A stretch of 64,000 bases of DNA from NCBI RefSeq assembly GCF_901827185.1, contig NZ_LR594671.1, forward strand, positions 992,001-1,056,000, read 5' to 3'. A model generated the notes under the pieces. It was not told where the DNA came from, did no database searches, and worked only from the letters and a program-made list of their open reading frames with translations. Below, one piece after another: positions 1 to 42,652 of this stretch. Origin of the DNA: Variovorax sp. PBL-E5 (GTDB lineage: Bacteria > Pseudomonadota > Gammaproteobacteria > Burkholderiales > Burkholderiaceae_C). Each line of letters starts with the position of its first letter. Positions within the stretch are counted from its first letter, which is position 1. A program made the translations under genes and the position numbers.

Positions 1-339
1 CCTGTCGTCGACCGGCTGCACAAGACGCTGACCTTCCATTCCTGGTATCCGGGCTGCCCGATGGAGAACGATGCCTACGACATCCCGAAGCCCAAGGACA
101 CCGAGCTGATCGTGCCGACGCTGCTGTTCGTGCCCTGCCTGGGCTATAGCGCGGGCGGATACCGGCTCGGCTACGGGGGGGGCTTCTACGATCGAACACT
201 GGCGGCGCTGGAGCCGCGGCCGTTCACCGTGGGCCTTGGCTTCACGAACGGATTCCTCGACGAGTTCGAACCGGAAGCGCACGACATGCCATTGGACGCG
301 ATCCTCAACGACAACGGGGTCGTCTGGCCAATCACTTGA
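1..339 (+). CDS. 5-formyltetrahydrofolate cyclo-ligase, C-terminal part (partial)
   Basis: The reading frame is open from base 1, so the true start lies outside the window and only about 112 C-terminal residues are visible. The family converts 5-formyl-THF to 5,10-methenyl-THF with ATP in the cytosol. The diagnostic glycine-rich motif GGYRLGYGGGFYDR is intact, preceded by a PTLLFVPCLGYS strand and followed by the usual hydrophobic GLGFTNGF strand and an acidic/His stretch (EPEAHDMPLDAI). The gene ends at a TGA at 337-339, and a structured repeat begins one base later. The next gene is convergent. Family assignment is secure; nothing can be said about its promoter. Confidence 0.9.
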   Translation, partial: PVVDRLHKTLTFHSWYPGCPMENDAYDIPKPKDTELIVPTLLFVPCLGYSAGGYRLGYGGGFYDRTLAALEPRPFTVGLGFTNGFLDEFEPEAHDMPLDAILNDNGVVWPIT

Positions 340-340
340 C

Positions 341-440
341 TCGCCCCCAGGCTTCGCGCACTTCGTGTCGCTTCGCCAACCCCCTGCCGGGGGCGACACC
401 GGCGGACCGGCGAAGCCGGATCCGCGGTGCCCCTGGAACT
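341..440 (+). repeat. Structured intergenic repeat, copy A
   Basis: First of three ~95-bp copies (others at 37849-37940 and 41462-41560). It starts right after the TGA of the cyclo-ligase gene, in the same orientation. It carries two hairpins: CCCCC/GGGGG arms at 380-384 and 389-393, and CCGGC/GCCGG arms at 407-411 and 415-419 with loop GAA. All copies share a CCCCCAG-type opening, an ACTTCGTGT block and an ATCCGCGGTG block after the second hairpin. Confidence 0.8.
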
Positions 441-460
441 GGAGCCGTCGCGGTGTCGAG

Positions 461-37818: not shown

Positions 37819-37848
37819 GCAAGTCTCCTGGGGTATTTGTCCTTTGCG

Positions 37849-37940
37849 GGAAACACCGCGGATCTGGCTCTGCCAGTCCGCCGGTGTTGCCCCCTGCAAG
37901 GGGGTGCAGAGCCACACGAAGTGGGCGAGGCTGGGGGTGA
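37849..37940 (-). repeat. Structured intergenic repeat, copy B
   Basis: Second copy of the ~95-bp element, inverted relative to the window. It begins four bases beyond the TGA (37944-37946) of the leftward LysR gene and points the same way as that gene. The first hairpin has CCCCC/GGGGG arms (37900-37904 with 37890-37894). The second has CTGGC/GCCAG arms (37872-37876 with 37864-37868), both arms changed relative to CCGGC/GCCGG in copies A and C, which keeps the pairing. Confidence 0.8.
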
Positions 37941-37943
37941 GTT

Positions 37944-38906
37944 TCATACTTCTGGGTCTAGGCGGCGTCCGTAGGCCTTGAGGCTCGCGGCTTTGAGCGC
38001 CTTCATCATCACCTTCGCCGCGGGCGACAGCAACCGGTCCGTGCGCGTGATGATGCCGAACGCATCCATGTGGCAAGGCATCTCGAGCGGCAGCACGGCG
38101 ACGATGCCGTGCGACGCGTAGTAGTGGGCCACGTCGGTGGCCAGCACCGCGATCAGGTCGCTCTGCTGCAGCATGCGCGTGATGAACAGCAGCGCAGCCG
38201 TCTCGATCACGTTGATCGGCGGCTGCACGCCTTCTTCCTGGAACATCAGTTCGAAGCGGTGGCGCAGCACGCTGCCGGCCGGCGGCACGATCCAGCCGGC
38301 CGACACCACGTCGCGCAGGCCGAGCCCGCTCGTGCCGAGCAGCGGATGCCCGGGGCGCACCAGCGCGCAGACCGGCTCCTCGGTCAGCGCCTCGTAGCGC
38401 AGCTGCGACTTGTCGTGCTCGGCGAAGAGGCGTGCCACCAGGATGTCGAGCTTGCCTTGCTCGAGCCGTTCGAGCAGCACCGGGCTGGTCTCGATCTCGA
38501 GCGCGATGCGCAGCGTGGGCTGCTCGCGCTTGACCGCCGCCACCGCCGGCGGCAGCAGCGTGAGTCCGGGCGCGGTGATCGCCCCGACGTTGACCTGGCC
38601 GAAGCGCCCGGCCTTGAGCGCCGCGACCTCGTCATGCGCCTGGTTCAGGCTGGCGAGCGCGCCGCGCGCGTGGCGGATCATCGCCTCGCCATACCAGGTC
38701 GGCCGCATGCCGCGCGGATGGCGCTCGAACAGCGAGACCTCCAGCACATCCTCCAGGTCCTTGAGCAGCTTCGAGGCCGCCGGCTGCGTCATGTTCAGCA
38801 CCTGGGCCGCGCGGTGGATGTTGCCTTCCTCGGCGAGGGCCACGAGCAGCAGCAACTGCCGGGTCTTCAGACGCGCACGGATGAACCAGTGCGTGTAGTT
38901 GGTCAT
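37944..38906 (-). CDS. LysR-family regulator (GbpR-like)
   Basis: A 320-residue LysR regulator with the winged helix at about residues 12-75 (LLLLVALAEEGNIHRAAQ, then NMTQPAASKLLKDLED) and a GbpR-type effector domain (VNVGAITAPGLTLLPPAVAA, LDILVARLFAEHDKSQLRYE). GbpR-like proteins regulate sugar-binding-protein operons. The start ATG 38906 is behind AGGAAA. It is divergent from the aldehyde dehydrogenase gene, and a TCCAA-N7-TTGGA dyad lies between, overlapping the candidate promoter. It probably controls the sugar transport and catabolism operon to its right, in response to the sugar or its acid. Confidence 0.93.
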   Translation of the reverse strand: MTNYTHWFIRARLKTRQLLLLVALAEEGNIHRAAQVLNMTQPAASKLLKDLEDVLEVSLFERHPRGMRPTWYGEAMIRHARGALASLNQAHDEVAALKAGRFGQVNVGAITAPGLTLLPPAVAAVKREQPTLRIALEIETSPVLLERLEQGKLDILVARLFAEHDKSQLRYEALTEEPVCALVRPGHPLLGTSGLGLRDVVSAGWIVPPAGSVLRHRFELMFQEEGVQPPINVIETAALLFITRMLQQSDLIAVLATDVAHYYASHGIVAVLPLEMPCHMDAFGIITRTDRLLSPAAKVMMKALKAASLKAYGRRLDPEV

Positions 38907-40494: not shown

Positions 40495-41460
40495 ATGAAA
40501 CTGAACCGTCGCACTCTCACCGTGGCGCTCGCCAGCGCCTCGCTGTCCTCGCTGCTGCCGGCCACGGCCTTCGCGCAGAAGAAGCTGGTCCTGGGTTTTG
40601 CCCAGGTCGGCGCCGAAAGCGAATGGCGCACCGCCAACACCGAGTCGATCAAGTCCTCGGCCCAGGACGCGGGCATCGAGCTCAAGTTCTCCGATGCGCA
40701 GCAGAAGCAGGAGAACCAGATCAAGGCGATCCGTTCGTACATCGCGCAGAAGGTCGACGTGATCGCGTTCTCGCCGGTGGTCGAATCGGGCTGGGAACCG
40801 GTGCTGCGCGAAGCCAAGGCCGCGAAGATTCCCGTGGTGCTGACCGACCGCTCGGTGGACACCAAGGACGACTCGCTCTACGTCACCTTCATGGGCTCCG
40901 ACTTCATCGAGGAAGGGCGCAAGGCCGGCCGCTGGCTGGTCGAGAAGATGAAGGACCAGAAGGGCGACGTCAACATCGTCGAGCTGCAGGGCACGGTGGG
41001 CTCGGCGCCGGCGATCGACCGCAAGAAGGGCTTCGAGGAAATCATCAAGTCCGATCCGAAGTTCAAGATCATCCGCTCGCAGACCGGCGACTTCACGCGC
41101 GCCAAGGGCAAGGAGGTGATGGAAGCTTTCTTGAAAGCCGACGGCAAGAAGATCAACGTGCTCTTCGCGCACAACGACGACATGGCGATCGGCGCCATCC
41201 AGGCCATCGAGGAAGCGGGCCTGAAGCCGGCCAAGGACATCGTGATCATCTCGATCGACGGCGTGAAGGGCGCGTTCGAGGCCATGATGGCCGGCAAGCT
41301 CAATGTCTCGGTCGAATGCAGCCCGCTGCTCGGGCCGCAGCTGATGAGTGCGGTGAAGGACATCAAGGCCGGCAAGACCTTGCCCAAGCGCATCGTGACC
41401 GTCGAAAGCATCTTCCCCATGGAAGTGGCGGCGGCTGAGTTCCCGAAGCGCAAATATTGA
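40495..41460 (+). CDS. ytfQ: Sugar ABC transporter substrate-binding protein (YtfQ-like)
   Basis: A 321-residue periplasmic sugar-binding protein of the LacI/RbsB fold with a signal peptide ending FAQ. The start of the mature part, [20 protein letters not shown], is characteristic of YtfQ, the galactofuranose/arabinose-type binding protein, and [20 protein letters not shown] and [19 protein letters not shown] follow. Its transporter partners (YtfR, YtfT, YjfF) are encoded at 45424-49048, beyond the ChvE-GguAB genes, so the two systems are interleaved in one transcription direction. Start ATG 40495 is preceded by AGGAGA. Confidence 0.9.
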
Positions 41461-41461
41461 G

Positions 41462-41560
41462 CACACCCCCAGGCTTGCCCACTTCGTGTGGCCGCCAACC
41501 CCCTTGCAGGGGGCAACACCAGCGGACCGGCAAAGCCGGATCCGCGGTGTTCCTGGAACT
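41462..41560 (+). repeat. Structured intergenic repeat, copy C
   Basis: Third copy of the ~95-bp element, in the gap between the ytfQ-like and chvE-like genes and in their direction. It starts one base after the TGA of ytfQ. Hairpin 1: CCCCC 41499-41503 / GGGGG 41509-41513. Hairpin 2: CCGGC 41527-41531 / GCCGG 41535-41539. It would be transcribed within the operon. Confidence 0.8.
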
Positions 41561-41581
41561 GAATACAACGGAGACTCTTCA

Positions 41582-42652
41582 ATGAAACGCAACTTCCTCA
41601 AGACCCTGCTCGCTGGCGCCGCGTTCGCGCTGATCGGCCTCGCGCCGCCGGCCCAGGCCCAGGACAAGGGTCTCATCGCCATCTCGATGCCGACCAAGTC
41701 GTCGGCGCGCTGGATCGCCGACGGCGCCAACATGGTCAAGGACTTCCAGGCCAAGGGCTACAAGACCGATCTGCAGTACGCCGACGACGACATCCCCAAC
41801 CAGTTGGCGCAGATCGAGAACATGGTGACCAAGGGCTCGAAGGTGCTGGTGATCGCCGCCATCGACGGCACCACCCTGTCGGACGTGCTGCAGAAGGCGG
41901 CCGACAAGGGCGTCAAGGTGATCGCCTACGACCGGCTGATCAGGGGCTCGAAGAACGTCGACTACTACGCCACCTTCGACAACTTCCAGGTCGGCGTGCT
42001 GCAGGCCGGCTACATCGAGAACGCGCTCAAGCTCAAGGAAGGCAAGGGCCCGTTCAACATCGAGCTGTTCGGCGGATCGCCGGACGACAACAACGCCTTC
42101 TTCTTCTACAACGGCGCGATGTCGGTGTTGAAGCCCTACCTCGACAGCGGCAAGCTGGTGGTGCGCAGCAAGCAGATGGGCATGGACAAGGTCTCGACCC
42201 TGCGCTGGGACGGCGCGGTGGCGCAGGCGCGCATGGACAACCTGCTGTCGGCCTACTACACCAAGGACCACGTCGATGCCGTGCTGTCGCCCTATGACGG
42301 GCTGTCGATCGGCATCATCTCGTCGTTGAAAGGCGTAGGCTACGGCTCGCCGCAGCAGCCGATGCCGGTGGTGACCGGGCAGGATGCCGAAGTGCCGTCG
42401 ATCAAGTCGATCCTGAAGAAGGAGCAGACTTCGACCGTGTTCAAGGACACGCGCGAACTCGCCAAGGTCACGGTGAACATGGTGGACGCGATGCTGGCCG
42501 GCAAGCAGCCCGAGGTGAACGACACCAAGACCTACAACAACGGCGTCAAGATCGTGCCCTCGTACCTGCTCAAGCCGGTGAGCGTCGATGCCTCGAACTG
42601 GAAGCAGGTGCTGGTCGACAGCGGCTATTACAAGGACAGCCAGTTCAAGTAG
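41582..42652 (+). CDS. chvE: Multiple-sugar-binding periplasmic protein (ChvE-like)
   Basis: A 356-residue periplasmic sugar-binding protein. After the signal peptide (PPAQAQ) comes [20 protein letters not shown], then [39 protein letters not shown] and [17 protein letters not shown], all of the ChvE/XylF subgroup. ChvE-GguAB systems take up arabinose, galactose, xylose and similar monosaccharides. It starts at ATG 41582 behind GGAGA, just after repeat copy C, and leads straight into gguA (11 bp). Confidence 0.92.

Follow-up and report, generated by a model that had tools for sequence, protein, structure and literature searches.

Three copies of a structured repeat in the window

We analysed a stretch of 64,000 nucleotides from Variovorax sp. 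PBL-E5 (contig NZ_LR594671.1, positions 992,001 to 1,056,000), hereafter the window, in which three genes are each followed by one copy of a non-coding repeat that measures about 95 nt and is predicted to form three hairpins. Copy A (338..446, plus strand; 992338-992446 on the contig) matches our covariance model R1 with 115.9 bits, copy B (37837..37943, minus strand; 1029837-1029943) with 103 bits and copy C (41460..41566, plus strand; 1033460-1033566) with 114.1 bits. At the places reported by a first-pass annotation of this DNA (341-440 on the plus strand, 37849-37940 on the minus strand and 41462-41560 on the plus strand), the three copies can be aligned over about 95 nt. An nhmmer search of 2 Mb containing the window revealed no fourth copy within the window at E ≤ 0.01, and none of 4227 Rfam families matched the window at gathering score.

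The gene upstream of copy A, of which the window holds the 3' part (1..339, plus strand), belongs to the 5-formyltetrahydrofolate cyclo-ligase family (Pfam PF01812, 73.9 bits) and ends with a TGA at 337..339 (plus strand). Copy B follows the TGA (37944..37946, minus strand) of a LysR-family regulator gene (37944..38906, minus strand; Pfam PF03466 and PF00126), and copy C the TGA (41458..41460, plus strand) of a gene for a periplasmic binding protein (40495..41460, plus strand; Pfam PF13407), downstream of which a second gene of this type (also PF13407) begins at 41582. The 3' neighbour is a converging LysR gene for copy A and a same-strand gene for copies B and C. All three copies lie in sense orientation relative to their host gene, and their conserved R-CCCCC block starts 3 nt (A), 5 nt (B) and 4 nt (C) after the stop codon, so that the reported position just behind a stop, in the orientation of the gene, is confirmed for each of them.

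Conserved pairing in the predicted structure

The structure was predicted from an alignment of 64 full copies (alignment A2). In copy A, hairpin 1 (GCGCAC / TTC loop / GTG-T-CGC) would occupy positions 356..371, hairpin 2 (CCCCC / GGGGG) positions 380..393 and hairpin 3, a long stem with a 3-nt loop, positions 397..429, all on the plus strand. Standard pairing was found in 98.3% of the pair cells of A2, and 99 cells had changed on both sides of a pair, compared with 25.0 (sd 3.6) in shuffled alignments. An excess of double changes over random substitution had been named beforehand as a check on the repeat, and it is clearly present. Structures slid along the alignment gave only 5-23 double-change cells, a comparison that favours the real structure because the latter was derived from the same alignment. 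Covariation support comes from hairpins 1 and 3, most of it from hairpin 3; hairpin 2 hardly varies, gives no evidence of covariation and is sometimes absent from the minimum-energy folds of single copies. The compensatory change first noticed in copy B (CTGGC/GCCAG) proved to be real, the pair concerned being C-G in 62 and U-A in two of the 64 copies.

Folded as RNA, the three window copies gave z scores of -3.0, -3.3 and -3.6, and the two DNA strands of copy A gave -3.2 and -2.9. Within the stems, G-U and A-C combinations occurred at 15:17 in alignment A2 and 7:6 in alignment A4 (22:23 when pooled). As G-U is no commoner than A-C, the pairing test gives RNA no advantage over DNA as the level of constraint. 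In several copies (for instance at contig positions 485646, 616565 and 785528), hairpin 3 is followed by one more GC hairpin, a fourth and optional one that is GGCCTGGCTTCGCCGGCC-like. We also considered a general need for structure behind the stop codons of this genome, and rejected it: in 150 gaps sampled from 217 long gaps free of the element, the mean z score was -0.4 and 13% fell below -2 (mononucleotide shuffles), compared with 58% of the elements.

Placement behind stop codons in the genome of PBL-E5

The genome of PBL-E5 contains at least 148 R1 matches (150 candidates scored). Placement was studied in 2 Mb of the chromosome including the window, picked by position only, with gene calls from a home-made caller. 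This region holds 68 copies (nhmmer, E below 1e-8), balanced between the strands (36 plus, 32 minus). For 57 of them, the distance from a same-strand stop codon to the start of the copy is -1 to 10 nt, with 36 of these at 3-5 nt, whereas random intergenic points in random orientation are stop-adjacent in 4.3% of 200,000 draws. A cruder ORF test, the one applied to other genomes below, places 54 of the 68 copies behind a stop. The first-pass annotation had singled out the lack of any genome-wide preference for stops and orientation as the observation that would speak against it, and both preferences were found. Its statement that the repeat always sits behind a stop is true of the three window copies and too strong for the region, where 11 of the 68 copies have no same-strand stop within 10 nt; six of these 11 exceptions are inverted, with their 3' end no more than 30 nt from the stop of a converging gene. 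The distance from the element to the next gene is broad (11-196 nt, 5th to 95th percentile), so it is the stop, rather than the next start, to which the element is tied. In addition, where 100 nt or more separate a stop-adjacent copy from the next gene, as is the case for seven copies, the copy is always located 3-5 nt from the stop. The gene downstream is on the same strand for 43 of the 57 stop-adjacent copies, a share like that of all genes (1400/1908). A tail-to-tail pair of copies in a BIME-like arrangement lies within 255 nt at contig positions 328304-328558.

The host genes have features of their own. TAG stops are enriched (26/57, compared with 284/1687 genes; p 2e-7), and AT makes up 52% of the 6 nt that precede the stop, compared with 34% in all genes. 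The 10 nt flanking the element on its 5' side are 58% AT at host genes and 59% AT at the 11 exceptions, for an intergenic mean of 37%; that the exceptions share this AT-rich flank suggests an insertion preference. Codon bias, for which our score is only a proxy based on the home-made gene caller, is stronger in hosts (medians 0.652 vs 0.540; p 4e-8). Downstream of the element, a T5 run is present at 10 of the 57 hosts, compared with 73 of 1630 other stops. Taken together, the codon bias and the downstream T5 runs suggest that the hosts are expressed genes.

Distribution and relation to known repeat families

Matches to R1 were present in all 61 genomes of the genus sample, in 135 of the 200 genomes (106 of 141 genera) of the family sample at E 1e-6, and in seven of the 200 genomes of the order sample, three of these seven being family members that include PBL-E5 itself; here, as in the PBL-E5 genome, the per-genome match counts are lower bounds, with up to 63 matches taken per genome in the genus sample and up to 19 in the family and order samples. 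Six plasmid records match the element (three from Variovorax and three from one Comamonadaceae isolate), and no match was found in 50,697 phage records. For other genomes, 56 of 60 matches were used, since three matches of locus L127 share a stretch with L220 and one weak L220 match was excluded. These 56 were taken among the best-scoring matches (53 in the family, three outside). In 44 of them, the distance from the stop of a same-strand ORF to the match is -1 to 13 nt, compared with 1.1% of random points in the loci concerned. A pattern scan of named genomes returned at least 120 stretches, those listed being from Achromobacter, Bordetella, one Ramlibacter bin and one Burkholderiaceae bin; a longer BRE-like pattern had no matches. 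The Achromobacter/Bordetella set comprises 80 of these at least 120 stretches and gives 78 first copies, later tandem copies and copies less than 400 nt from the start of the locus being excluded. Among the matches listed, a stop precedes 65 of the 78 first copies at a distance of 1-14 nt, compared with 1.7% of random points, and TAG is again common in the hosts (29/65, among the matches listed).

By its description, the repeat appears to belong to the Beta-proteobacterial Repeat Element (BRE) type (Hot et al. 2011, PMC3110155). The main account gives BREs a length of about 90 bp (75-91 bp in Bordetella) and a GC content of about 69% (PMC3110155); the repeat described here measures about 95 nt and its GC content is 65-78% in two sets of model matches (77 and 60). 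The listed range of BREs covers Bordetella and Comamonadaceae, Variovorax being absent from that list (PMC3110155), and our repeat, as model R1 or as a pattern of the same anatomy, matches genomes of Bordetella and Achromobacter and is found throughout the family sample. BREs were further described as mostly intergenic, arranged in tandem copies, variable in occupancy between species and numbering at most 29 per genome (PMC3110155). We saw the tandem habit in L230 and in some Achromobacter loci, where copies are about 76-79 nt apart; in the 2 Mb of PBL-E5, copies are as a rule single. Some BRE repeats were noted to overlap ORF ends, and their function was said to need investigation (PMC3110155). 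As far as its main text goes, in which neither 'stop codon' nor 'hairpin' occurs, the BRE paper gives no stop rule, no orientation rule and no hairpins (PMC3110155). We found no report of a stop rule for the BRE-type family in the open literature, to which our search was largely confined, and the link between this little-studied betaproteobacterial repeat family and the ends of genes has apparently escaped notice so far. From a region with a BRE, the RNA bprJ of Bordetella pertussis was detected by Northern blot (PMC3110155), and bprJ is described as changed in an RNase III mutant (PMC8386462).

Other small repeats share single traits with this family. Enterobacterial REP/BIME elements and GTAG/CGTC-tagged REPs are palindromic and intergenic, and some lie near upstream stops (PMC12306157, PMC3733652, PMC2817692); in Escherichia coli, 446 of 4,072 REPs were counted as having an upstream stop no more than 15 nt away (PMC12306157). 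Unlike our repeat, they are described as 20-40 bp long, ending in GTAG or CGTC and accompanied by a RAYT (PMC12306157, PMC3733652, PMC2817692). The repeat described here has about 95 nt and three hairpins, no convincing linkage to a RAYT and a far larger share of copies at stops (57/68). It has no fixed GTAG foot either, a G preceding the TAG in only some of the 26 TAG hosts. ERIC/IRU and YPAL, miniature elements of intergenic DNA, are likewise small and non-autonomous, and their sites may be filled or empty; an effect on the stability of upstream transcripts has been proposed for YPAL (PMC2229807). They resemble our repeat neither in sequence nor in structure. ERIC elements are reported to have terminal inverted repeats, TA ends and a target duplication, and YPAL to duplicate 3-26 bp (PMC2229807); by eye, we noticed no duplication at our repeat.

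Turnover at homologous stops

We compared the three sites with their homologues in related genomes. At site A, all 30 loci (PBL-E5 included) were usable: 14 carry a BRE-type element (truncated in L169 and L177), six carry a second, related hairpin repeat that we call type III, in one case in the orientation of the converging gene, and ten carry neither, three of these ten having 0-1 nt between the two stops. At site C, 29 of 30 loci could be joined (PBL-E5 included; L148 was not joined). Nineteen of the 29 were labelled as carriers on the basis of an intergenic distance above 80 nt, a label that also counts degraded copies, and the other ten have gaps of 12-67 nt; at least two of these ten show, by eye, other GC-rich inverted repeats. 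At site B, seven of 30 loci could be joined, and the element is present in PBL-E5 alone. The position of the stop codon is homologous throughout the 59 joined loci of sites A and C. Trees built from the flanks require eight state changes at each of these two sites, and their supported branches force at least five changes for BRE at A and at least six at C. The states are clustered on the tree at A (8 changes, compared with a shuffled mean of 13.1) and not at C (8, compared with 8.4). Such repeated changes around a fixed stop mean that the element is gained and lost, or gives way to another sequence, while its place stays the same. Gain, loss or replacement has thus been repeated at two orthologous stops with the position of the stop unchanged, in good agreement with the suggestion of a small REP-like mobile element aimed at the ends of genes. 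Comparing filled and empty sites between species, we noticed neither terminal inverted repeats nor a target-site duplication by eye.

Type III (...CACTTCGTGT...CCCCCCGAGGGGG...) is a hairpin family found beside stops in either orientation; at site A it occurs in L162 and L172-L176. The 2 Mb of PBL-E5 contain seven type III matches (near contig positions 204425, 917132, 927582, 1298421, 1745519, 1755060 and 1933987), four of them following a same-strand stop at 1-7 nt and the remaining three inverted, 2-21 nt from the stop of a converging gene. In L180 and L185 at site A, the place that the element has in relatives, between the stop and the converging gene, is taken by an unrelated sequence with many GGACGCAGAGGACGC-like motifs, which looks like another repeat family. 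Finally, in L170 and L171 at site A and in L134 at site C, the full element is separated from the stop by a partial second copy, as if a new piece had landed on the stop side.

Discussion

The tie of the repeat to stop codons, its orientation bias and its conserved pairing are direct observations, and so is its repeated gain, loss or replacement at the two homologous stops compared, whose position did not change. To account for them, we favour, with about an even chance of being right, the idea that the BRE-type three-hairpin repeat is an mRNA 3'-end structure spread by a separate mobilising system. A putative system acting in trans would spread the element, which would settle directly behind stop codons in the direction of the gene. 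Once transcribed, the hairpins might build a block where the coding sequence ends, which could shield the upstream message from 3'-5' decay and set it apart from the next gene of an operon. Enterobacterial REPs are held to act as a decay barrier of this kind in operons. If the hairpin block shields the message, the place right behind the stop would be useful, or at least best tolerated. In favour of this idea are the placement at stops in all the sets compared, the conserved pairing, the signs that the hosts are expressed genes, the weaker structure in long gaps free of the element and the bprJ RNA of Bordetella pertussis. Four points temper it. That G-U is no commoner than A-C would be unexpected if the constraint acted on the sense RNA alone; the RNA-level 3'-end element proposed by the first-pass annotation is plausible and, with ratios of 15:17 and 7:6, not established. 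The unclustered states at site C, together with the several relatives that do without the element, show no strong benefit. At the Y1_Tnp loci examined, no mobilising enzyme for the repeat came to light. Moreover, the AT-rich 5' flanks, present at the exceptions too, and the enrichment in TAG also fit an insertion preference.

This last point leads to a view that we hold to be possible although clearly less probable, namely that insertion machinery picks stops or an AT-rich context and that the element is a stop-seeking parasite, useless to its host. The AT content before host stops and in the 5' flanks, the TAG bias shared by the Achromobacter/Bordetella hosts and the presence of different repeat families at the same stop are all in its favour. 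However, AT-rich stretches also exist elsewhere between genes, yet 57 of the 68 copies are at stops and in one orientation; the Y1_Tnp loci examined yielded no enzyme for it, nor was a target duplication seen by eye. Insertion might instead be random, with only those copies right behind stops persisting because the original gaps were tiny. The three relatives with a 0-1 nt gap at site A and four with a 12-nt gap at site C are consistent with such survivorship, which we nevertheless consider improbable. It is already weakened by the long gaps, in which all seven copies still hug the stop, and a uniform distribution in the present gaps would place only 30% of copies within 10 nt; survivorship alone also leaves the orientation bias in convergent gaps without explanation.

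GC-rich hairpins behind stops also recall a transcription terminator or an attenuator, although this function is hardly probable here. A T5 run occurs inside the element in one of 57 cases, which does not look like an intrinsic terminator made of a GC hairpin and a T run, and the share of same-strand genes downstream is that of genes in general. Copy A folded alone at 97 nt does adopt the switch fold, in which the stop-proximal C-run would compete with the G-run to sense the ribosome, but minimum-energy folds use it in only seven of the 64 copies, with no association with the flanking bases (p 1.0), so that the attenuator of the first-pass annotation, as a ribosome-sensitive alternative fold, finds no support. 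The lowest probability, a very small one, goes to the idea that a RAYT (Y1) transposase moves the repeat as a REP/REPIN. A single Y1_Tnp gene is indeed present in 17 of the 20 genomes searched and in PBL-E5, and one of these 18 loci has a weak adjoining match (L368 1813-1905, 23.2 bits). The other 17, that of PBL-E5 included, show no match to the element, and three of the 20 genomes (G080, G354 and G394) have no Y1_Tnp hit, although two of them hold tens of matches with strong bit scores. The length of the element, its three hairpins and the missing GTAG foot also differ from a REP, and with no convincing linkage at any of the 18 loci we rejected mobilisation by RAYT. The Y1_Tnp gene of PBL-E5 (L029; contig positions 1157296-1157625) is single and without flanking repeats, and is followed by what looks like a glutamate synthase gene, as we presume from its reading frame. 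These five readings of the mechanism overlap in part; we rank the 3'-end structure highest, followed in turn by the parasite, survivorship, the terminator and RAYT.

Tentatively, and with more doubt than confidence, one may go further and regard BRE as a stop-codon-seeking mobile repeat that inserts in sense at the ends of coding sequences across more than one Burkholderiales family, other hairpin families taking the same places. Stop-seeking insertion of this type would perhaps be coupled to transcription or to the termination of translation. Small bacterial repeats are usually just somewhere between genes. Sites A and C, where one and the same stop occurs in nature with and without the element, make both readings of the repeat testable. 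If true, stop-tied sense repeats in many genera would represent either an unnoticed layer of gene control at the 3' end or a mobile repeat that recognises the ends of genes.
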